Assembly: GCA_025966215.1 (NCBI GenBank)
Contig: JAOPVM010000084.1
Coordinates: 1-11,229, forward strand
Direction of reading: 5' to 3'
Source: Klenkia sp.
Lineage (GTDB): Bacteria > Actinomycetota > Actinomycetes > Mycobacteriales > Geodermatophilaceae
Length of the DNA stretch: 11,229 nt
The position numbers were made by a program, and so were the translations under genes. The notes beneath the pieces were generated by a model, which was not told the DNA's origin, did not search any database, and saw nothing but the letters and a program-made list of their open reading frames with translations. This document shows, piece by piece, positions 1-7,007 of the stretch (positions within the stretch are counted from its first letter, which is position 1; every line of letters begins with the position of its first letter).

Positions 1-782
1 AGGCCGTGCGCTCGCGGACCGAGCCGCTGGACGTCAAGGCGATCCTCGCCCAGATGCTGCAGATGGGCGACGAGGGGCACAACCGCAACCGGGCCGGCTC
101 GCTGATGACCCTGCGCGACCTGTCCCCGGCGATCGTCGAGGTGGACGCCCCGTCGGCCGACATCGCCGCGGTGCTGAAGTTCATCGGCGGCAACGAGCAC
201 TTCTTCCTCAACCTGGGCATGCCCACGGCCAAGCTCGCGATGGACGCCGCCCGCGACGTCCCCGGCTCCACGCTGGTCACCGTGCTCGCCCGCAACGGCA
301 CCGAGTTCGGCGTGCAGACCGCCGGCACCGGCGACCGCTGGTTCACCGCCCCGGCCAACACCCCGGTCGGGCTGTTCCTCGGCGACTACGGCCCGGACGA
401 CGCCAACCCCGACATCGGCGACTCCGCGATCATGGAGACCTACGGCGTCGGTGGGTTCTGCATGGCCGCGGCCCCGGCGATCGTCCGCTTCGTCGGCGGC
501 ACCGTGCCCGACGCGCTGGCCACCACCGAGCGGATGTACCAGATCACGATGACCGAGAACCCGGCGATGCAGGTGCCGGTGCTCGGTTTCCGCGGCGCCC
601 CGACCGGCATCGACGTCGTCTCGGTCGCCCGTACCGGTTGGCTGCCGCAGATCAACACCGGCATGGCCGGGCGGGTCGCCGGCACCGGCCAGGTCGGCGC
701 CGGCCTGGTCCAGCCCCCCGCCGCCTGCTTCGAGCAGGCGGTCGCCGCGCTGGCCGAGGAGTCCCGCACCGCCCTCGCCTGA
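1..782 (+). CDS. allG: Oxamate carbamoyltransferase subunit AllG-like (DUF1116/YlbE family), 5'-truncated by window edge
   Basis: The reading frame is open from the left edge (first full codon at 3) to TGA at 780-782, giving about 259 residues. Family members are about 420-470 residues, so this is the C-terminal 55-60% and the GTG at 6 is unlikely to be the real start. The sequence follows E. coli YlbE/AllG closely as I remember it: MGDE-x-H-x-RN near the start, the FFLNL segment, then RWFTAPANTP, the ANPDIGDSAI block, a GxGG turn, INTG and the final ACFEQA. In E. coli, AllF (FdrA), AllG and AllH form the transcarbamylase that phosphorolyses oxalurate to oxamate and carbamoyl phosphate in allantoin fermentation, and AllK (carbamate kinase) makes ATP. 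A carbamate kinase lies about 5 kb away here. The partner subunits are not visible and could lie upstream. Family is certain, but substrate is unknown and may be a related ureido-acid. Confidence 0.88.
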   Translation, partial: AVRSRTEPLDVKAILAQMLQMGDEGHNRNRAGSLMTLRDLSPAIVEVDAPSADIAAVLKFIGGNEHFFLNLGMPTAKLAMDAARDVPGSTLVTVLARNGTEFGVQTAGTGDRWFTAPANTPVGLFLGDYGPDDANPDIGDSAIMETYGVGGFCMAAAPAIVRFVGGTVPDALATTERMYQITMTENPAMQVPVLGFRGAPTGIDVVSVARTGWLPQINTGMAGRVAGTGQVGAGLVQPPAACFEQAVAALAEESRTALA

Positions 783-795
783 CACCCCTGACACC

Positions 796-842
796 GGGCG
801 CTCCGCACCCCCTCTCGGTCGCTGAGGGGGTGCGGAGCGTCC
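796..842. terminator. Bidirectional intrinsic terminator between convergent allG and SDR operon
   Basis: A perfect 16-bp stem joins 799-814 (CGCTCCGCACCCCCTC) to 824-839 around a 9-nt loop at 815-823. With one mismatch the pairing extends to 796-842. It starts 13 bases after the allG stop and ends 20 bases before the SDR stop on the other strand, so it serves both convergent genes. No strong T-tract follows on either strand, as is usual for actinobacterial hairpin terminators. Confidence 0.85.
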
Positions 843-861
843 TTCGCCGCGGGGGCGGACG

Positions 862-1677
862 TCAGCGGATCAGCGTCCCCAGGTCCACCGGCAGCTGGAT
901 CCCGGTCACGTGCCGGGCCTCGTCGCTGGCCAGGAACGCGACGGCGTTCGCGATGTCCTCGGGCTGGGAGAACTGGTCGGGCAGCGCCTGCATGAAGATC
1001 GGCGCCAGGGTCTGTGCGTTGGCCGCGATCAGCGGGCCCAGGTCGTCCACGGTCATCCCGGTCGCGACCCCGTGCGGGTGCACGGTGTTGACCCGGATCG
1101 AGTGCTGGGCCAGCTCGTTGGCCAGCGACTTCGCGTACCCGACGACCCCGTGCTTGGTGGCGGCGTAGGCCGAGAGGAACGGCAGCCCGCGCAGCCCGGC
1201 CACCGAGCTGGTGATCACGATCGAGCCCCCGGTGCCCTGCTCGAGCAGCGTGGGGATCGTGGCCTTGGCGGTGTGGAAGACCCCGGTCAGGTTGACCGCG
1301 ACCGTCTCCTCCCACTGCTCGAGGGTGATCTCCCAGCTGTTCCCGGCCGAGCAGATGCCGGCGTTGGCGACGACGACGTCCAGCCGCCCGAGCTCGGCGA
1401 CGCCCTCGGTCACCGCGGCCTGGACGGCGGCGAAGTCCCGGACGTCGGCCTGCCGGGCCACGATCCGGCGGTCCAACGCCTCGACCTGGCGGACGGTCTC
1501 GGCGAGGTCCTCGGGGGTCGAGCCGGCGTAGTGCGTGGTGGCCGGCTGGGCGCAGACGTCGATGGCGATGACGTCGGCGCCCTCGCTGGCCAGCCGGACG
1601 CAGTGCGCCCGGCCCTGGCCGCGGGCGGCACCGGTGACGAAGGCGACCTTGCCCTCGAACCGCCGTGCGGTGCTCAC
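862..1677 (-). CDS. SDR family oxidoreductase, mycofactocin-coupled type (downstream gene of pair)
   Basis: This is a 271-residue classical short-chain dehydrogenase. Visible motifs are the Rossmann glycine motif TGAARGQG (residues 15-22), an acidic D40 after the second strand that favours NAD(H), NAG at 105-107, catalytic S158 and the Y171-x-x-x-K175 pair. The N-terminal ARGQGR-H signature with the longer loop between the second strand and its helix is typical of the mycofactocin-coupled SDR subfamily (TIGR03971). Those enzymes hold NAD tightly and pass electrons to the peptide cofactor mycofactocin. The GTG start at 1677 is chosen because it overlaps the TGA of the upstream SDR by four bases (GTGA), implying translational coupling. 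It also gives the usual short N-terminus before the first strand. The open frame continues further upstream, but that part is a shadow of the other SDR. Substrate, probably an alcohol, is unknown. Confidence 0.9.
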   Translation of the reverse strand: MSTARRFEGKVAFVTGAARGQGRAHCVRLASEGADVIAIDVCAQPATTHYAGSTPEDLAETVRQVEALDRRIVARQADVRDFAAVQAAVTEGVAELGRLDVVVANAGICSAGNSWEITLEQWEETVAVNLTGVFHTAKATIPTLLEQGTGGSIVITSSVAGLRGLPFLSAYAATKHGVVGYAKSLANELAQHSIRVNTVHPHGVATGMTVDDLGPLIAANAQTLAPIFMQALPDQFSQPEDIANAVAFLASDEARHVTGIQLPVDLGTLIR

Positions 1678-2540
1678 CCCGGGGCCCCGGAGGTGGTCGT
1701 GGCCAGCAGGGCGCCGGCATCGACCTTGAGCTGCAGGCCGGTGACGTAGCGGGCCTCGTCGGAGGCCAGGAACAGGACGGCGTTGCTGATGTCGACGGCG
1801 TCCACGAAGGGGATGGGCATCGGCTGCATGGCCGGGAAGGCGAGCATGGCGTCCTCCCGGGTCGGGTTCTCCAGGTCGGGGCGGAAGACCTTGTACATCG
1901 GCTCGCTCTGCAGCATCGGGGTGTCGACGTTGGTGGGGTGCACCGCGTTGACCCGGATGGACTGCGGGGCCAGCTGCTTGGCCAGCTCGTGCACGAACCG
2001 GGCCACGTTCTGCTTGGCGTAGCTGTAGCCGGACCCGCCGGGGCCGTTCTGCGGGTTGTCGGTGCCGCCGGACAGCAGCCCGGCGACCGAGCCGGTGCAG
2101 ACGATCGAGGCCCCCGCGCCCAGGTGCGGCAGGGCGACCTCGACGGCGTTCAGCACCCCGGTCAGGTTCACCGCGACGACGTCGAACCAGCCCTGCAGGG
2201 GCACGTCGGCGCCCAGCGGGCAGATCCCGGCGTTGGCGACGACGACGTCGAGGTGCCCCAGCTCGGCGACCCCGGCCTCGAGAGCGGCGGCCAGCTGCCC
2301 CTTGTCCCGGACGTCGGCGACCGTCGTGACCACCCGGCGGTCCAGGGCCTCGATCTGGCGGGCCGTCTCGGCGAGGTCGGCCTCGGTGGCCAGCGGGTAG
2401 TGGTTGGAGGCGATGTCCGCGCAGACGTCGACGGCGATCACGTCGGCGCCCTCCTGGGCCAGCCGCAGCGCGTGGCTGCGTCCCTGACCGCGTGCGGCCC
2501 CTGTCACGAACGCGACCTTGCCGGTCATCCGACCTGCCAC
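1674..2540 (-). CDS. SDR family oxidoreductase, mycofactocin-coupled type (promoter-proximal gene of pair)
   Basis: This is a 288-residue short-chain dehydrogenase, clearly paralogous to the gene it overlaps. It has TGAARGQG at residues 13-20, D38, NAG at 103-105, S151, and Y172-x-x-x-K176 within YSYAK. Between S151 and Y172 it carries a glycine- and asparagine-rich insertion absent from its neighbour, so the two enzymes probably take different substrates. The start is GTG 2540, with GGAGG at 2551-2547 spaced six bases away. ATG 2528 (four codons in) has no comparable ribosome site. It is first in a two-gene minus-strand operon, divergent from a TetR-type regulator, with a palindromic operator-like site just upstream. 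The subfamily depends on mycofactocin where studied. No mycofactocin biosynthesis gene is in this window, so that link is inferred from subfamily features. Confidence 0.9.
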   Translation of the reverse strand: MAGRMTGKVAFVTGAARGQGRSHALRLAQEGADVIAVDVCADIASNHYPLATEADLAETARQIEALDRRVVTTVADVRDKGQLAAALEAGVAELGHLDVVVANAGICPLGADVPLQGWFDVVAVNLTGVLNAVEVALPHLGAGASIVCTGSVAGLLSGGTDNPQNGPGGSGYSYAKQNVARFVHELAKQLAPQSIRVNAVHPTNVDTPMLQSEPMYKVFRPDLENPTREDAMLAFPAMQPMPIPFVDAVDISNAVLFLASDEARYVTGLQLKVDAGALLATTTSGAPG

Positions 2541-2546
2541 AGCTGT

Positions 2547-2551
2547 CCTCC
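2547..2551 (-). promoter_or_regulatory. Ribosome binding site of first SDR gene
   Basis: Minus-strand GGAGG ends six bases before GTG 2540. It decides for this start over the in-frame ATG at 2528. Confidence 0.7.
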
Positions 2552-2561
2552 ACGTGAGTTG

Positions 2562-2578
2562 GTTGCACTGAGTGCACC
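2562..2578. promoter_or_regulatory. Palindromic operator between SDR operon and tetR
   Basis: TGCACT-G-AGTGCA at 2564-2576 is a perfect 13-base palindrome with a single central base. The outer G2562/C2578 also pair after one mismatch. It lies in the 81-base divergent intergenic region, 22-38 bases upstream of the SDR start and about 45 bases upstream of the regulator start. This is the typical location and form for a TetR-family operator that controls both directions. That the neighbouring regulator binds it is inference. Confidence 0.65.
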
Positions 2579-2608
2579 GTGATCGGGGTCACCGTAGCGC
2601 GCTCGGGC

Positions 2609-2614
2609 TAGCGT
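2609..2614 (+). promoter_or_regulatory. -10 element of tetR-type gene, leaderless arrangement
   Basis: TAGCGT fits the actinobacterial TANNNT -10 consensus and is followed by seven bases and then GTG 2622. Transcription would therefore start at or next to the start codon. No clear -35 hexamer is seen. Confidence 0.5.
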
Positions 2615-2621
2615 GGGAACC

Positions 2622-3212
2622 GTGTCCATCCCGGTCCGCGAGCAACAGCGCCGGGACAGCTGGTCGGCCCTGCAGGCCGCGGCCCTGGACCTGGTGGGCC
2701 GGTACGGGTTCACCGCCGTCACCGCGGACGACATCGCCACGGCTGCCGGGGTCTCCCGGCGCACCTTCTTCAACCACTTCCCGACCAAGGCCGCCGCGCT
2801 CTTCGACCCGCACCCCGACGACGCCGACCGGCTCACCGAGCTCCTCGCCGAGGTCGACACCACGCCCGGCCTCTGGGCGGCGTTGCGCGCCGTGTGCCTG
2901 GACTTCGTGGCCGGCTACGAGGCGGTGCTGCCGGTCCGCCGGCGGCTGGTCGCCGAGGACGCCGAGCTCGACGTCTACCACCGGACGGCCCACCGGCACG
3001 TCGGGTCCGCGGTCGAGGGCTGGACCGCCGCGCACCTGCCCGGTGACCCGCTGCGGGCCGCGCTCCTGGCCGAGGGGGTGGCCGCCGTCCTGATCACCGC
3101 GTTCCGCAGCTGGCAGCCCGACGACGACCCGGCGGTCTTCGCCGACCTCGTCGCCCGCGGCTTCGACGTCGTCGGCACCGGCCTGGCTCACCAGGAGTCG
3201 ACACCGCCGTGA
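2622..3212 (+). CDS. TetR/AcrR family transcriptional regulator
   Basis: This is a 196-residue one-component repressor. The N-terminal helix-turn-helix covers about residues 18-60: a helix ending in GRYGF, then VTADDIATAAGVSRRTFFNHF and a lysine-containing helix, the textbook TetR DNA-binding domain. The C-terminal ligand-binding half is helical and diverged, so the ligand cannot be predicted. I choose GTG 2622 over GTG 2613 because a TANNNT -10 box sits seven bases upstream, which fits leaderless initiation, whereas 2613 overlaps that box. The gene is divergent from the SDR operon across a perfect palindrome, so the SDR pair and the gene itself are the likely targets. The Fe(II) oxygenase starts 34 bases downstream on the same strand and may be co-transcribed. 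The DNA-binding domain resembles the regulators seen beside mycofactocin systems (MftR type), but assignment to that clade is not secure. Confidence 0.9.
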   Translation: MSIPVREQQRRDSWSALQAAALDLVGRYGFTAVTADDIATAAGVSRRTFFNHFPTKAAALFDPHPDDADRLTELLAEVDTTPGLWAALRAVCLDFVAGYEAVLPVRRRLVAEDAELDVYHRTAHRHVGSAVEGWTAAHLPGDPLRAALLAEGVAAVLITAFRSWQPDDDPAVFADLVARGFDVVGTGLAHQESTPP

Positions 3213-3216
3213 CACC

Positions 3217-3235
3217 GGCGCAACACGGCTGCGCC
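3217..3235 (+). repeat. Small inverted repeat between tetR and the oxygenase gene
   Basis: GGCGCA (3217-3222) and TGCGCC (3230-3235) form a 6-bp stem with a 7-base loop in the 34-base gap. It ends 11 bases before GTG 3247. It could be a weak attenuator or operator, or chance in GC-rich DNA. Confidence 0.3.
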
Positions 3236-3246
3236 AGCCTGGGCCG

Positions 3247-4281
3247 GTGACCTTCGAGGTGCCCGTCGTCGACATCTCCCCCTACGTCACCGGGGTCGGT
3301 GACCGGGCTGCCACCGCTGCGGCGATGGACGCCGCCTGCCGCTCCGTCGGGTTCGTGCAGGTGGTCGGGCACGGCGTCCCGGAGACGGCGGCCGAGGCGC
3401 TGGCCGCCGCGATGGACGCCTTCTTCGGTCAGCCGGCCGAGGCGAAGCTCGCCGTCCGCACCCCGCCGGAGGTCAACCGCGGTTACAGCCCGCCGAAGAG
3501 CGAGTCGCTGTCGCTGTCCCTGGGCGTGGAGTCCGCGGCCCGGATGAACGACTTCTTCCAGGCGTTCAACGTCGGCGCCTCGCAGGCCACCTACCCCGAC
3601 GTCCCCGACCTGCCGTTGCCGGACTACGCGCCCAACACCTGGCCGGACGTCGAGGGCTTCCAGGACGCCGTGGACACCTGGTTCGCCGAGGCCGCGCGGG
3701 TGGCCCGCACCCTCACCCGGGTCTTCGCCGACGCCCTGGACCTGCCGCCGGACTTCTTCGACCGCATGACCGGGCACTCCCTGGACGTGCTGCGGATGAA
3801 CGACTACGCCCTCCCGCCGGGCACCGTGGACCTCGACGGCGAGCTCACCGGGATGGGCGAGCACACCGACTACGGGATCGTGACCGTGCTCTGGGCCGAC
3901 CAGGTGCCCGGCCTGCAGGTGCTGTCCGCCGACGGCGGCTGGCACGACGTCTCCCCGGTCGACGGCGCGCTGCTGGTCAACCTGGGCGACGTCACCGCCC
4001 GGCTCACCAACGAGCGTTGGTCCTCGACCCTGCACCGGGTCAAGCCGCCGGTCGTCGACGGCACCATCCGGCGCCGCCGGTCGGCCGCGTTCTTCCACGA
4101 CGGGGACGTCGACGCCGTCATCTCGGTGCTGCCGTCGTGCGTGGCCCCCGGGGAGGAGCCGAGGTACCAGCCGGTCACCGTCGGCGAGCACGTGGCCGCG
4201 AAGCTGCGCGGCTCCCGGGCCGGCGTGGTCAACACCGCCGCCGGGCGGGAGGCCGCCCGGGTGCTCGCCGCCCGCACCTGA
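3247..4281 (+). CDS. Isopenicillin N synthase-like Fe(II)/2-oxoglutarate-dependent oxygenase
   Basis: This is a 344-residue member of the DIOX/IPNS-like oxygenase family. The N-terminal DIOX_N region (residues about 5-120) starts with PVVDISPY and contains GFVQVVGHGV. The C-terminal double-stranded beta-helix holds the metal triad H206-x-D208 (GEHTDYG) and H263 (STLHRV). R277-x-S279 is the expected anchor for 2-oxoglutarate. All key residues are present, so it should be active. The family hydroxylates, desaturates or cyclises small molecules using O2 and 2-oxoglutarate. Members include plant hormone oxygenases, IPNS, and fungal thymine-7-hydroxylase, which acts on a pyrimidine base. Nothing here fixes the substrate. 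The start is GTG 3247, which places the PVVDI motif at the usual distance from the N-terminus. No clear ribosome site precedes it. It may be co-transcribed with the TetR gene 34 bases upstream. Confidence 0.9.
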   Translation: MTFEVPVVDISPYVTGVGDRAATAAAMDAACRSVGFVQVVGHGVPETAAEALAAAMDAFFGQPAEAKLAVRTPPEVNRGYSPPKSESLSLSLGVESAARMNDFFQAFNVGASQATYPDVPDLPLPDYAPNTWPDVEGFQDAVDTWFAEAARVARTLTRVFADALDLPPDFFDRMTGHSLDVLRMNDYALPPGTVDLDGELTGMGEHTDYGIVTVLWADQVPGLQVLSADGGWHDVSPVDGALLVNLGDVTARLTNERWSSTLHRVKPPVVDGTIRRRRSAAFFHDGDVDAVISVLPSCVAPGEEPRYQPVTVGEHVAAKLRGSRAGVVNTAAGREAARVLAART

Positions 4282-4334
4282 GGGAATCCCCGGACGGCAC
4301 CGTGTCTTGGCCCAGGTGACCACCCCGACCACCT

Positions 4335-4339
4335 GGAGG
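4335..4339 (+). promoter_or_regulatory. Ribosome binding site of ohr-like gene
   Basis: GGAGG with a five-base spacer to GTG 4345 supports that start. Confidence 0.7.
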
Positions 4340-4344
4340 CCACC

Positions 4345-4770
4345 GTGCCCGTCGTCTACACCGCCATCGCCACCGCGACCGGGGAGGGCCGCAACGGCCA
4401 CGCCCGGTCCTCCGACGGCCTCCTCGACGTCGACCTGGCCACCCCGGCGGAGATGGGTGGCGCCGGCGGGGCGACGAACCCCGAGCAGCTGTTCGCCGCC
4501 GGGTACGCGGCCTGCTTCCACTCCGCGCTGAAGGTCGTGGCCACGCGTGCGGGCACCACGCTGGCCGATTCCGCGGTCACCGCCGAGGTCGGCATCGGGC
4601 CGAACGACGCCGGCGGGTTCGGTCTGGAGGTGGTGTTGCACGTGGAACTGGGCGGGGGCCTGGACCAGGCGGCTGCCGAGGCGCTCGTCGAGGCGGCCCA
4701 CCAGGTGTGCCCGTACTCCCATGCGACCCGCGGGAACATCCCGGTCACCCTGGAGACCACGGTCGCGTGA
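4345..4770 (+). CDS. ohr: Ohr family organic hydroperoxide reductase (OsmC/Ohr superfamily)
   Basis: This is a 141-residue, full-length thiol peroxidase of the Ohr subgroup. It reduces organic and fatty-acid hydroperoxides in the cytosol, using a peroxidatic and a resolving cysteine recycled by lipoylated proteins. The peroxidatic Cys57 sits in GYAACFHSAL and the resolving Cys122 in VCPYSHATRGN, both Ohr signatures. R16 in the N-terminal segment and E48 (NPEQLF) match the arginine and glutamate that activate the cysteine. The start GTG 4345 has GGAGG five bases upstream. It follows the oxygenase by 63 bases on the same strand and ends at a strong terminator shared with the convergent barbiturase operon. 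No OhrR-type MarR regulator is present in the window, so peroxide-responsive control would have to come from elsewhere. Confidence 0.93.
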   Translation: MPVVYTAIATATGEGRNGHARSSDGLLDVDLATPAEMGGAGGATNPEQLFAAGYAACFHSALKVVATRAGTTLADSAVTAEVGIGPNDAGGFGLEVVLHVELGGGLDQAAAEALVEAAHQVCPYSHATRGNIPVTLETTVA

Positions 4771-4886
4771 TCGGCGACGTCGTGGTCGGCCGGGTCCAGG
4801 ACTCCGCCGCCGAGCCCAGCCGGATCAGGGACGAGCTCGTCGGCGTGCTGTGCGCCGAGACCGCCCGCGTCCGGTTCGACGCCTGA
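4767..4886 (+). CDS. Possible small ORF (39 aa), unknown
   Basis: A 39-codon frame starts at GTG 4767, which overlaps the ohr TGA as GTGA, and ends at TGA 4884-4886, six bases before the terminator stem. The peptide has no membrane segment, contains one cysteine (residue 29) and resembles no family I recognise. In favour are the coupled start and its fit up to the terminator. Against are its length and the ease with which open frames arise in such GC-rich DNA. It could be a degraded remnant of a longer gene. Confidence 0.25.
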   Translation: MIGDVVVGRVQDSAAEPSRIRDELVGVLCAETARVRFDA

Positions 4887-4891
4887 ACGCA

Positions 4892-4929
4892 CGAACGGCC
4901 CGCACCCCCGGTGGGGTGCGGGCCGTTCG
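4892..4929. terminator. Bidirectional terminator between ohr and barbiturase operon
   Basis: A perfect 17-bp stem (4892-4908 with 4913-4929) is closed by the 4-base loop CGGT. It lies between the convergent ohr (+) and ring-opening amidohydrolase (-) genes and ends nine bases from the latter's stop codon. No T-tract follows. The core CCGCACCCC/GGGGTGCGG resembles the terminator at 796-842. Confidence 0.9.
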
Positions 4930-4937
4930 CGTCGTGG

Positions 4938-6041
4938 TCAGGCCTTGACGATGGCGGCGACGGGACCGCCGCCCGAGGGGCCCTGGTGCACGGCGGCGAC
5001 GGAGACGAACACCGCCGGGTCACCGGTCACCGAGGCGGCGACGCCGCCGACGGTGGCCTTGATCTGGCGGTGCCAGAAGACGTCGGAGTCATCCAGCATC
5101 GCGTTGCGCCGGCCGCGGACGTAGCCGGTCGGGTCGGCCTCGCAATTGAGGAAGACGTTGACCAGCTTGTCGCCGAGGTCGGAGGTGCGCGGCCGCTCGG
5201 GCAGCTCGAGGCCGGCCTCGCGGATGGCGTCCCAGATGCCGTCGGTGTCCAGGGCGTCCGTCATGACCGAGTGGCCGATCCGGTAGGCGCCACCGTGCCC
5301 GCGGGCGTTGCCGACGACGACGATCTGCGCCTGGTCGAGCTCCACGCCCGAGGAGCAGGAGGCGACGGCGGAGAACAGCGAGAAGTCCCGCATGACCTGC
5401 TTCTGCTCGGGCAGCTCGATCTCGCCCAGGGCCAGGGCGATGCCCAGCGCCGTCGTCCCGTTGGAGAGGTCCATCGAGCCGTGCGGCTCGTCGTAGTAGG
5501 TCTCCTGGCCCCGCGACTTGGCCTCGCGGATCGTCTCGATGGTCAGCAGCGGGGTCTTGGTCTGCACGTAGTGCACGTCGGCGGGGTCGGTGATCCCGGC
5601 CTCGGCCATCGCGCGCCGCACGCCCTCGGCGACCTTCTCGACCATGGTGATCCGGCCGATGTCCTCGGGCAGCAGCACCTCGCTCATCGCGAAGCCCACG
5701 GTCAGCCGGGGCTCGTCGGTCTTCTCGACCGAGTCCTCGGGCAGCGTGGCGAAGATCGTGGCGTGCGGGCTGATGACCCCGTCGGTGCCGCCGGACCAGA
5801 CGATCGGGATCTGCTTGACCTCGGCCTCGCTGCGGGTGCCCTTGGCCATCAGCACCTCGCGGAAGGCCCGGTCGGCGATGATCCGGGTGTAGTCGTTGAC
5901 CCCGCCGTTGCCCTCGGTCTTGCCGATGACGGCGACGACGCGGTCGGCGTCCATGACGCCGGAGTCGATGAGCTTGGCCAGCTCGGAGGCGTCACTGACG
6001 TTGTGCAGCGGGACCTTGCGGACCTCGATCGGTGCGGGCAC
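4938..6041 (-). CDS. Ring-opening amidohydrolase: barbiturase (or cyanuric acid hydrolase)
   Basis: This is a 367-residue, full-length member of the barbiturase/AtzD family, whose fold has three similar domains each giving a Lys-Ser pair. Likely pairs are K41 ([11 protein letters not shown]) with S83 (VWSGGTDG), K162 ([10 protein letters not shown]) with S230/S231 (SCSSGVEL), and K328 (RQIKATVGG) with S356 ([11 protein letters not shown]). The [12 protein letters not shown] block is also typical. The reaction opens barbiturate to ureidomalonate, as in oxidative pyrimidine catabolism, or cyanurate to carboxybiuret. Details such as the TKTPLLT and CSSGVELD segments match my memory of actinobacterial barbiturase better than AtzD/TrzD, so barbiturase is preferred. 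GTG 6041 is the start, with AAGGAG six bases upstream. The gene lies 12 bases after carbamate kinase, in one operon, which suggests that ring nitrogen ends up as carbamoyl phosphate. Confidence 0.88.
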
Positions 6042-6047
6042 GGCGGG

Positions 6048-6053
6048 CTCCTT
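6048..6053 (-). promoter_or_regulatory. Ribosome binding site of barbiturase-like gene
   Basis: Minus-strand AAGGAG begins directly after the carbamate kinase TAG (6056-6054) and lies six bases before GTG 6041. This tight junction supports co-transcription. Confidence 0.75.
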
Positions 6054-7007
6054 CTACTGGATGACGGTGCCGACGGCCACGTCGGCGACGGCTTCTGCGA
6101 TGTGTTCGAGTGAGGTGATGACGGCGCGACGGCCGGTCCCGCCGGCGACGAACCGCAACGCGGCGTCGACCTTCGGGCCCATGCTGCCGCGCGCGAACTG
6201 TCCGGCCGCGGCGTGCGCGCGCAGCTCGGCGACGGTGACCCGGCCCAGCGGTCGGGCGCCGGGGGTCCCGAAGTCGACCATGACGTTGTCCACGTCGGTG
6301 GCGATGACCAGGGTGTCGGCGCCGAGTTCGGCGGCCATCAGCGCGGCGGTGAGGTCCTTGTCGATGACGGCCTCGACCCCGCGCAGCGCGGCGCCGGCCT
6401 GACCGTCGTCGACGACGGGGATCCCGCCCCCGCCGGCGCAGACGACGACGAACCCGGCACCGGCCAGCGTGCGGACGGCGGAGGAGTCCAGCACCGAGAC
6501 CGGAGCGGGGGAGGCGACGACGCGGCGCCAGCCCTTCTCGCCGCGGTCCTCCCAGGTCTGTCCGAGCTCGATGAACCGCGCGGCCTGCTCGCGGGGCAGG
6601 AACCGGCCGACCGGCTTGGTGGGCTCGGTGAACCCGGGGTCGTCGGCGTCCACCAGGGTGCGGGTGACCAGGGCGGCGGTGCGCTGGGTCAGTCCCCGGG
6701 CGGCGAGTGCTGCGTCCAGCTCGTCGACGACGGTGAAACCGATCGTGGCCTGGGTCTGGGCGACGTTCCAGTCCAGCGGGACAGGCGGCACCTCGTGTGC
6801 CGCGAGCTCGTTCTTGACCAGCAGGTTCCCGACCTGGGGGCCGTTGCCGTGGGTCAGCACGACCTGAACCCCGGTGGCGACGACGTCGGCCACGTGTCCG
6901 GCGGCGACGGCGATGGCGGCGCGCTGGGCGGCCGGGGTGGCGGAGCCGTCCGCCCCGGTCATCGCGTTGCCACCCAGGGCGATCACGACGGTGCTGGGTG
7001 CGGTCAT
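6054..7007 (-). CDS. arcC: Carbamate kinase
   Basis: This is a 317-residue amino-acid-kinase-fold enzyme that interconverts carbamoyl phosphate plus ADP with carbamate plus ATP. All family blocks are present: ALGGNA (10-15), HGNGPQVGN (53-61), EPTKPVG (128-134), EKGWRRVVASP (157-167), AGGGGIPV (191-198), DKD (216-218), ATDVD (236-240) and GSMGPKVDAA (274-283). Length is normal. ArcC usually sits beside arginine deiminase and ornithine transcarbamylase, but neither is here. It is instead the first gene of an operon with a ring-opening amidohydrolase, and an AllG homologue lies nearby. That favours the AllK-like role, making ATP from carbamoyl phosphate released during nitrogen-ring degradation; arcC is used as the generic symbol. 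ATG 7007 has a TANNNT -10 box six bases upstream, indicating a leaderless transcript. Confidence 0.95.
   Translation of the reverse strand: MTAPSTVVIALGGNAMTGADGSATPAAQRAAIAVAAGHVADVVATGVQVVLTHGNGPQVGNLLVKNELAAHEVPPVPLDWNVAQTQATIGFTVVDELDAALAARGLTQRTAALVTRTLVDADDPGFTEPTKPVGRFLPREQAARFIELGQTWEDRGEKGWRRVVASPAPVSVLDSSAVRTLAGAGFVVVCAGGGGIPVVDDGQAGAALRGVEAVIDKDLTAALMAAELGADTLVIATDVDNVMVDFGTPGARPLGRVTVAELRAHAAAGQFARGSMGPKVDAALRFVAGGTGRRAVITSLEHIAEAVADVAVGTVIQ

Follow-up and report, generated by a model that had tools for sequence, protein, structure and literature searches.

The 11,229-nucleotide contig JAOPVM010000084.1 of Klenkia sp. (assembly GCA_025966215.1), referred to here as the window, contains a barbiturase gene joined to a carbamate kinase gene and, in the same locus, part of a gene for AllG, a subunit of oxamate carbamoyltransferase. 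This arrangement raises the question of why an enzyme that opens a pyrimidine ring should stand beside families that handle carbamoyl phosphate. From comparative evidence we suggest, with a probability of about 0.7, that the window encodes the last steps of an energy-conserving oxidative degradation of pyrimidines, in which ureidomalonate would be phosphorolysed and ATP would then be formed. The initial annotation had proposed such a route for ring-opened pyrimidines or triazines. Its pyrimidine part is well supported by the genes present, by their linkage and co-occurrence, by the distinctness of the AllG clade and by the paired absence of genes; its triazine part, with carboxybiuret as substrate, is not supported. 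The 12-base junction between kinase and barbiturase and the presence of AllG in the same locus were confirmed by reading frames and profiles, and the corresponding locus of Modestobacter sp. Leaf380 is uninterrupted.

Identity of the ring-opening enzyme

When the barbiturase of the window was compared with the solved barbiturase of Rhodococcus (5hwe), the match scored 616 bits with 285 of 365 residues identical (78%), against 317 bits for the best match among cyanuric acid hydrolases, and its closest relatives were Modestobacter and Klenkia genes with 97-99% identity, which makes the Geodermatophilaceae the most probable family of the source genome. The specificity residues of Bar (group VI, AtzD/Bar family) are Asn194, His324, Lys328, Val348 and Ser/Ala349, and the cyanuric acid hydrolase AtzD has Arg, Thr, Arg, Gly and Gly at these five sites (excerpts of PMC3758960). 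The window enzyme carries N194, H324, K328, V348 and A349, which is the Bar signature and not that of AtzD. NHKVA or NHKVS was found in 118 of 121 loci, the remainder being NHKIA (two loci) and IHKVA (one locus). Judged from these residues, the ring-opening enzyme is of the barbiturase kind, not the cyanurate kind; the product of barbiturase is ureidomalonate (excerpts of PMC3758960).

Several side observations concern the same family. The NCBIfam model NF052395 names the window barbiturase a cyanuric acid amidohydrolase (471 bits, cut-off 360). A mixed signature, NHKGG, which is neither AtzD- nor Bar-like, occurs in four loci (L244, L245, L247 and L248) whose family members are 38-40% identical to the window enzyme, and an amidase adjoins these members in L244 and L248. 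Plasmids of Citrobacter, Klebsiella, Enterobacter and others carry ring-opening amidohydrolases about 47% identical to that of the window, with 130 of 132 records below 60% identity.

Linkage of carbamate kinase to barbiturase

The window kinase is homologous over its full length to solved carbamate kinases, with residues 7-316 of 317 aligned to 1b7b. Its score lies above the cut-off of NF009007 (266 bits) and below that of the arcC equivalog TIGR00746 (358 bits; scores in Table 1). In 56 of the 59 nearest loci the kinase gene immediately precedes barbiturase, as it does in all 21 more distant loci and in 23 of the 30 best-scoring loci of a class-wide sample, two of these 30 being too short to judge. 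The linkage rests on these locus counts, and the adjacency is more than chance.

Co-occurrence of barbiturase and AllG

The initial annotation had called for a count of co-occurrence across genomes, and one was made for the barbiturase family, AllG and AllH. In the sample of 394 genomes drawn from the class, the barbiturase family PF09663 was found in 82 genomes, AllG in 88 and AllH in 79. AllG was present in 75 of the 82 genomes with PF09663, against 13 of the 312 without it, and 299 had neither gene (odds ratio 246, Fisher p 3e-58, uncorrected for kinship). When the same data were counted by genus, 35 genera had both, 6 PF09663 only, 8 AllG only and 89 neither (35/41 against 8/97; p 6e-19, kinship within genera being uncorrected). 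AllH was found in 72 of the 82 genomes, and roughly one in five of the sampled actinobacteria has both barbiturase family and AllG.

Five of the seven PF09663 genomes without AllG (G066, G128, G135, G157 and G382) have only divergent members with Gly at 348 and 349; the other two are a 72%-complete metagenome-assembled genome (MAG; G049) and a real exception (G241). Classed by kind of enzyme, 75 of 77 barbiturase-type genomes have AllG, against none of the five with only non-barbiturase members; of the 77, the 30 with the highest scores and a few others had their signature inspected, and the rest were classed by score (at least 459 bits). A contig-end fragment (G058) and a split gene (G244) were counted as barbiturase-bearing, and an 80%-complete MAG with AllG of the barbiturase type and no barbiturase found (G143) was counted as AllG-only. 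Barbiturase and AllG share a contig in 47 genomes and are 13-48 kb apart in 39 of these. Among the 35 tested of 80 barbiturase genomes, AllG was found in 31, one of which (G009) has distant paralogues only, and was missing from G004, G006 and two small MAGs (G017 and G020).

Two of these misses serve as natural controls. In the Modestobacter genomes G004 and G006 (loci L009 and L014), barbiturase, permease, CoxMSLG and HyuAB still stand side by side, but AllG is absent and so is a true carbamate kinase, with kinase matches of no more than 32 bits. This joint absence, which may be a single event, fits AllG and the kinase acting in series after barbiturase.

The locus shares the PF09663 family with the AtzD/TrzD pathways of cyanuric acid but differs from them in its barbiturase-like signature and in the AllG partner, which is absent from the five class-sample genomes with only non-barbiturase members, and on these two grounds the triazine or carboxybiuret reading was rejected. 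No biuret hydrolase was among the nine window proteins scanned, although no search was aimed at biuret hydrolases.

A barbiturase-linked kind of AllG

AllG matches the solved structure 3clq (389 bits), and AllF matches 3dmy (234 bits); AllF has coenzyme A (CoA)-binding and CoA-ligase domains and resembles the alpha subunit of succinyl-CoA synthetase. The window is the entire contig C367 of a 2.92-Mb MAG (G000, 73% complete), so that no sequence lies to the left of position 1, where AllF and AllH had been expected. AllF was found instead on a second contig of the same MAG, C247, which starts with the N-terminal part of AllG and has AllF beside it, and it stands next to AllG in relatives as well; the expected AllH was found in 11 of the 12 near genomes tested, the MAG being the one without it. 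In near genomes AllH lies apart from AllF-AllG, and a PucR-like frame adjoins it in five of the seven AllH loci examined. By eye, the AllG pieces of C367 (window 1-60) and C247 overlap by about 16 codons, with differing sequences and a length difference of one codon; the two contigs may be strain variants in the MAG or may carry two AllG copies. An unbroken locus of kinase, barbiturase, AllG, AllF, permease and CoxS is present in Modestobacter sp. Leaf380 (L004), with an intact AllG at 10408-11814 (-).

Within the 59 nearest loci, nearly all of Geodermatophilaceae, AllG lies inside the fetched stretch in 47. Nine of the other 12 stretches are shorter than 14 kb; of the remaining three genomes, one carries AllG at another site (L010) and two have none (L009 and L014).

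When an AllG tree was built with FastTree from 122 sequences (146 before exact duplicates were removed; sequences of up to 330 residues were excluded, and with them both pieces of the MAG), 99 barbiturase-linked tips formed one clade with a support of 0.998. All but one of the 99 come from genomes with barbiturase, the exception being an 80%-complete MAG (L215). Outside the clade stand eight AllG sequences whose operons have a carbamate kinase of their own, that of E. coli included, which are 40-56% identical, and 15 others that are more distant. Two genomes, G019 and G011, carry both kinds. Since 34 columns hardly vary in any kind of AllG, the barbiturase-linked AllG is predicted to be a still active subunit. 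Seven columns differ between the two kinds, a number that is based on just eight sequences of the E. coli kind and was not counted as evidence.

As a side observation, AllF-AllG-kinase operons occur in a second context (L213, L216, L217, L218, L232 and L155). Near some of them are PucR-like, nitrilase-like, cysteine-hydrolase-like and ABC-transporter-like frames, named by eye, which recall the nitrifier clusters described in excerpts of PMC12625717.

Organization of the complete locus

On C247 the AllG-AllF pair is followed by a divergent NCS2 permease, CoxM, CoxS, CoxL and CoxG, with HyuA and HyuB farther off, from 19.6 kb (L003/L085). The full set, comprising AllG-AllF-AllH, PucR, NCS2, CoxM, CoxS, CoxL, CoxG, an amide hydrolase, HyuA, HyuB, carbamate kinase and barbiturase, is laid out as one locus in seven genomes with five family labels, within 18 kb in G408 and with longer spacers in G237, G080, G137, G292, G065 and G122. 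PucR is present in all seven except G408, NCS2 in all except G137, and the amide hydrolase in five. In Embleya sp. NBC_00888 (NZ_CP108785.1) the whole set lies within 35 kb, in a different gene order. CaiB, a class III CoA transferase, and an AccAD-like gene lie within or beside the locus in G237, G137, G292 and G122; these two are compatible with malonate use under either phosphorolysis or hydrolysis.

The NCS2 permease scores 374 bits against RutG, 281 against UraA and 175 against a xanthine permease, and it passes only the general cut-off of the NCS2 superfamily. CoxL scores 469 bits against quinoline 2-oxidoreductase and 141 bits against xanthine dehydrogenase. These scores disfavour xanthine as the substrate of permease and hydroxylase, and make pyrimidine use only the likelier choice. 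The active-site loop of CoxL in aerobic carbon monoxide (CO) dehydrogenase of form I is AYRCSFR; this loop was absent from all 23 CoxL stretches read, some of which share a genome, and PYRGAGR stood in its place. CoxL is probably a hydroxylase of N-heterocycles (uracil) that is annotated as CO dehydrogenase. In C247 (L003:5187-7592) and at other loci it is named 'CODH_aero_grp5' by NCBIfam, with 1441 bits.

The slot between CoxG and HyuA is occupied by an amidase-signature protein in G408, G237, G080 and L062, whereas in G137, G292 and Embleya the protein beside CoxG is an unrelated member of the nitrilase family of carbon-nitrogen hydrolases. If ureidomalonate is phosphorolysed, an amide (malonamate) is expected, and if it is hydrolysed, urea, so amide hydrolases in this position fit phosphorolysis better. 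HyuA and HyuB are of the hydantoinase/oxoprolinase type, nearest to caprolactamase subunits. Their presence is constant in the mapped clusters (L003/L085, L082, G408 and others), even in those without AllG and kinase (L009 and L014).

Proposed pathway

Based on these gene sets, we propose the following scheme. The permease, nearest to RutG and UraA, would import uracil or thymine, which a CoxMSL-type molybdenum hydroxylase would oxidise to barbiturate or 5-methylbarbiturate. Barbiturase would open the ring to ureidomalonate, an acylurea, and an AllF-AllG-AllH complex of its own subfamily would convert ureidomalonate and phosphate to malonamate and carbamoyl phosphate. Carbamate kinase would then form ATP and carbamate from carbamoyl phosphate and ADP, with ammonia and CO2 as end products. 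An amidase-signature or nitrilase-family hydrolase, depending on lineage, would split malonamate to malonate and ammonia, the class III CoA transferase and the AccAD-like protein could lead malonate through malonyl-CoA to acetyl-CoA, and PucR may regulate the pathway.

The genes, their order and co-occurrence, the barbiturase signature and the AllG clade are observed; every substrate other than barbiturate, the phosphorolysis and the direction of the kinase toward ATP are inferred. The cleavage of ureidomalonate to malonamate and carbamoyl phosphate with a gain of ATP, as the initial annotation had put it, is supported by this comparative evidence. Ureidomalonate is oxalurate with one additional CH2, and on general chemical grounds an acylurea is expected to donate its carbamoyl group more readily than citrulline does, which makes its phosphorolysis plausible. 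We also consider it probable, with somewhat less confidence than for the window itself, that an energy-conserving pyrimidine catabolism of this form is widespread in actinobacteria, in which 'CO dehydrogenase group 5' would oxidise uracil, barbiturase open the ring, a ureidomalonate-specific AllFGH phosphorolyse the product and ATP be formed.

Here, we need to consider several observations that weigh against the proposed scheme. First, we know of no AllFGH activity on ureidomalonate, and a gene for the competing ureidomalonase may be present, as no sequence of this enzyme was found with which to search for it. The classical pathway ends with a hydrolytic ureidomalonase that yields malonate and urea (excerpts of PMC3758960). 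Second, the gene set is not complete everywhere. AllH was not found in the MAG (73% complete) but was found in all 11 other near genomes tested, and the two contigs of the MAG do not join exactly. AllG lies within the fetched 10 kb in none of the 21 distant loci, 18 of whose 20 tested genomes have it elsewhere. A kinase next to barbiturase is missing from five of the 28 assessable class-sample loci and, in the stretches read, from Nonomuraea gerenzanensis (L234) and G276, of which L234 is also without AllG there. In G241 barbiturase is accompanied by a distant kinase (378 bits, elsewhere) but not by AllG; in G010 (L036), which does have AllG, no kinase match exceeds 31 bits; and the sole AllG of G086 is a distant paralogue. 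The two control genomes G004 and G006 retain an orphan AllH (L260 and L261) with an adjoining PucR-like frame. Third, as to the step after phosphorolysis, no amide hydrolase was placed near the genes of the window, a search of 12 near genomes for the nitrilase (E <= 1e-30) gave no match, and the amidase of relatives is distantly related to AtzE (238 bits, cut-off 426) and could have another substrate. Finally, HyuAB is present in each of the eight clusters mapped in full, and the scheme does not account for it. Known relatives of HyuA and HyuB are ATP-dependent, so the energy gain would shrink if HyuAB belongs to this route and consumes ATP in it.

Alternative readings

The best surviving alternative, which we regard as unlikely, is that AllFGH is an ordinary oxalurate enzyme of the purine/allantoin route that stands beside barbiturase through a shared PucR regulon of nucleobase degradation. 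Oxalurate is the sole AllFGH substrate known to us, PucR belongs to a family named for purine catabolism, and the nearly constant AllG residues are retained. However, the barbiturase-linked AllG forms its own clade, two genomes carry both kinds, the kinase adjoins barbiturase, and the permease and CoxL scores lean away from xanthine. In addition, AllD, which makes oxalurate in E. coli, reached its cut-off in none of 20 chosen genomes with barbiturase and AllG, the E. coli control lying above it; 16 had no match and four had weaker relatives of 121-222 bits. Another source of oxalurate than AllD is possible. The initial annotation had named a complete allantoin pathway immediately upstream as the finding that would overturn it; the neighbours of AllF proved to be the permease and CoxMSL, and the gene maps showed no match to E. 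coli AllB, AllC or AllD.

Still less probable is that ureidomalonate is hydrolysed by a classical ureidomalonase, perhaps the amidase or HyuAB, while AllFGH and the kinase carry out the reverse carbamoylation or act on another ureido compound. The published pathway (excerpts of PMC3758960), the presence of HyuAB and amide hydrolases in the clusters, and the two Modestobacter genomes that manage without AllG and kinase are in line with it, but it leaves unexplained why AllG and AllH co-occur only with the barbiturase kind.

The CoA domains of AllF with their likeness to succinyl-CoA synthetase, and the acyl-CoA-handling CaiB and AccAD-like genes, would suit a cut at the other amide bond of ureidomalonate, releasing urea and forming malonyl phosphate or malonyl-CoA, but this is the least probable reading, as it leaves the adjacent carbamate kinase without a substrate, kinase and AllG are jointly absent from two genomes, and the E. 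coli AllFGH reaction is written without CoA (excerpts of PMC11326118).

Comparison with known systems

E. coli AllFGH interconverts oxalurate and phosphate with oxamate and carbamoyl phosphate (excerpts of PMC11326118). The present locus resembles E. coli allFGHK in its three subunit families and carbamate kinase, and presumably in the type of bond cleaved (an acylurea). It differs in that the kinase is joined to barbiturase, AllG belongs to a separate clade, and the neighbours are a pyrimidine-like permease and a molybdenum hydroxylase. The oxidative pathway of Rhodococcus erythropolis JCM 3132 (uracil/thymine dehydrogenase, barbiturase and ureidomalonase) would share its first steps with our scheme, in keeping with the identity of the barbiturases; its published end is hydrolytic, giving malonate and urea (excerpts of PMC3758960), whereas a phosphorolytic end is proposed here. 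The arginine deiminase and agmatine pathways also gain ATP from carbamoyl phosphate through carbamate kinase, but their ornithine or putrescine transcarbamylase is unlike AllFGH and has other substrates (excerpts of PMC11326118). A 2025 study of nitrifiers described AllFGH and kinase next to triuret genes and interpreted them as serving oxalurate use (excerpts of PMC12625717).

Among the matches listed in our literature search, which did not extend to subscription papers, no paper linked barbiturase with the formation of carbamoyl phosphate, and the four naming both 'barbiturase' and 'carbamoyl' dealt with triuret, biuret, Arabidopsis and cyanurate. The enzyme families are known; their combination and the proposed substrate are undescribed in the literature searched. 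If the scheme is true, it adds a further substrate class to the few routes from carbamoyl phosphate to ATP and changes the accepted urea end of oxidative pyrimidine degradation for many soil bacteria. Enzymes known to us only as activities would gain candidate genes: a single locus would supply them for uracil/thymine dehydrogenase, ureidomalonate transcarbamylase and malonamate amidohydrolase, and genes annotated as 'CO dehydrogenase' or 'cyanuric acid hydrolase' could receive corrected names. Named strains suited to testing the scheme are Modestobacter sp. Leaf380, Klenkia species and Embleya sp. NBC_00888, with the two Modestobacter genomes without AllG and kinase as natural controls.

Other genes of the window

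The features of the window are collected in Table 1. Since the genes between AllG and barbiturase occur inconsistently across related loci, we kept them out of the proposed pathway.

Table 1. Features of the 11,229-nucleotide window and the evidence for each.
Feature	Position	Strand	Evidence or remark
AllG (oxamate carbamoyltransferase subunit), C-terminal part	3..782	+	PF06545 189 bits, profile 78-215 of 215; 5' end cut by contig start
Two short-chain dehydrogenases/reductases, TetR regulator, 2-oxoglutarate oxygenase, OsmC protein	862-4770		between AllG and barbiturase
Barbiturase	4938..6041	-	PF09663 (Amido_AtzD_TrzD) 487.9 bits
12-base junction, carbamate kinase stop to barbiturase start	6042..6053	-	frame coordinates
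Carbamate kinase	6054..7007	-	TIGR00746 333.8 bits, NF009007 289.5 bits, 1b7b 242.7 bits
PHP protein, two frames resembling RecQ and AlkB	right of carbamate kinase		last two named by eye

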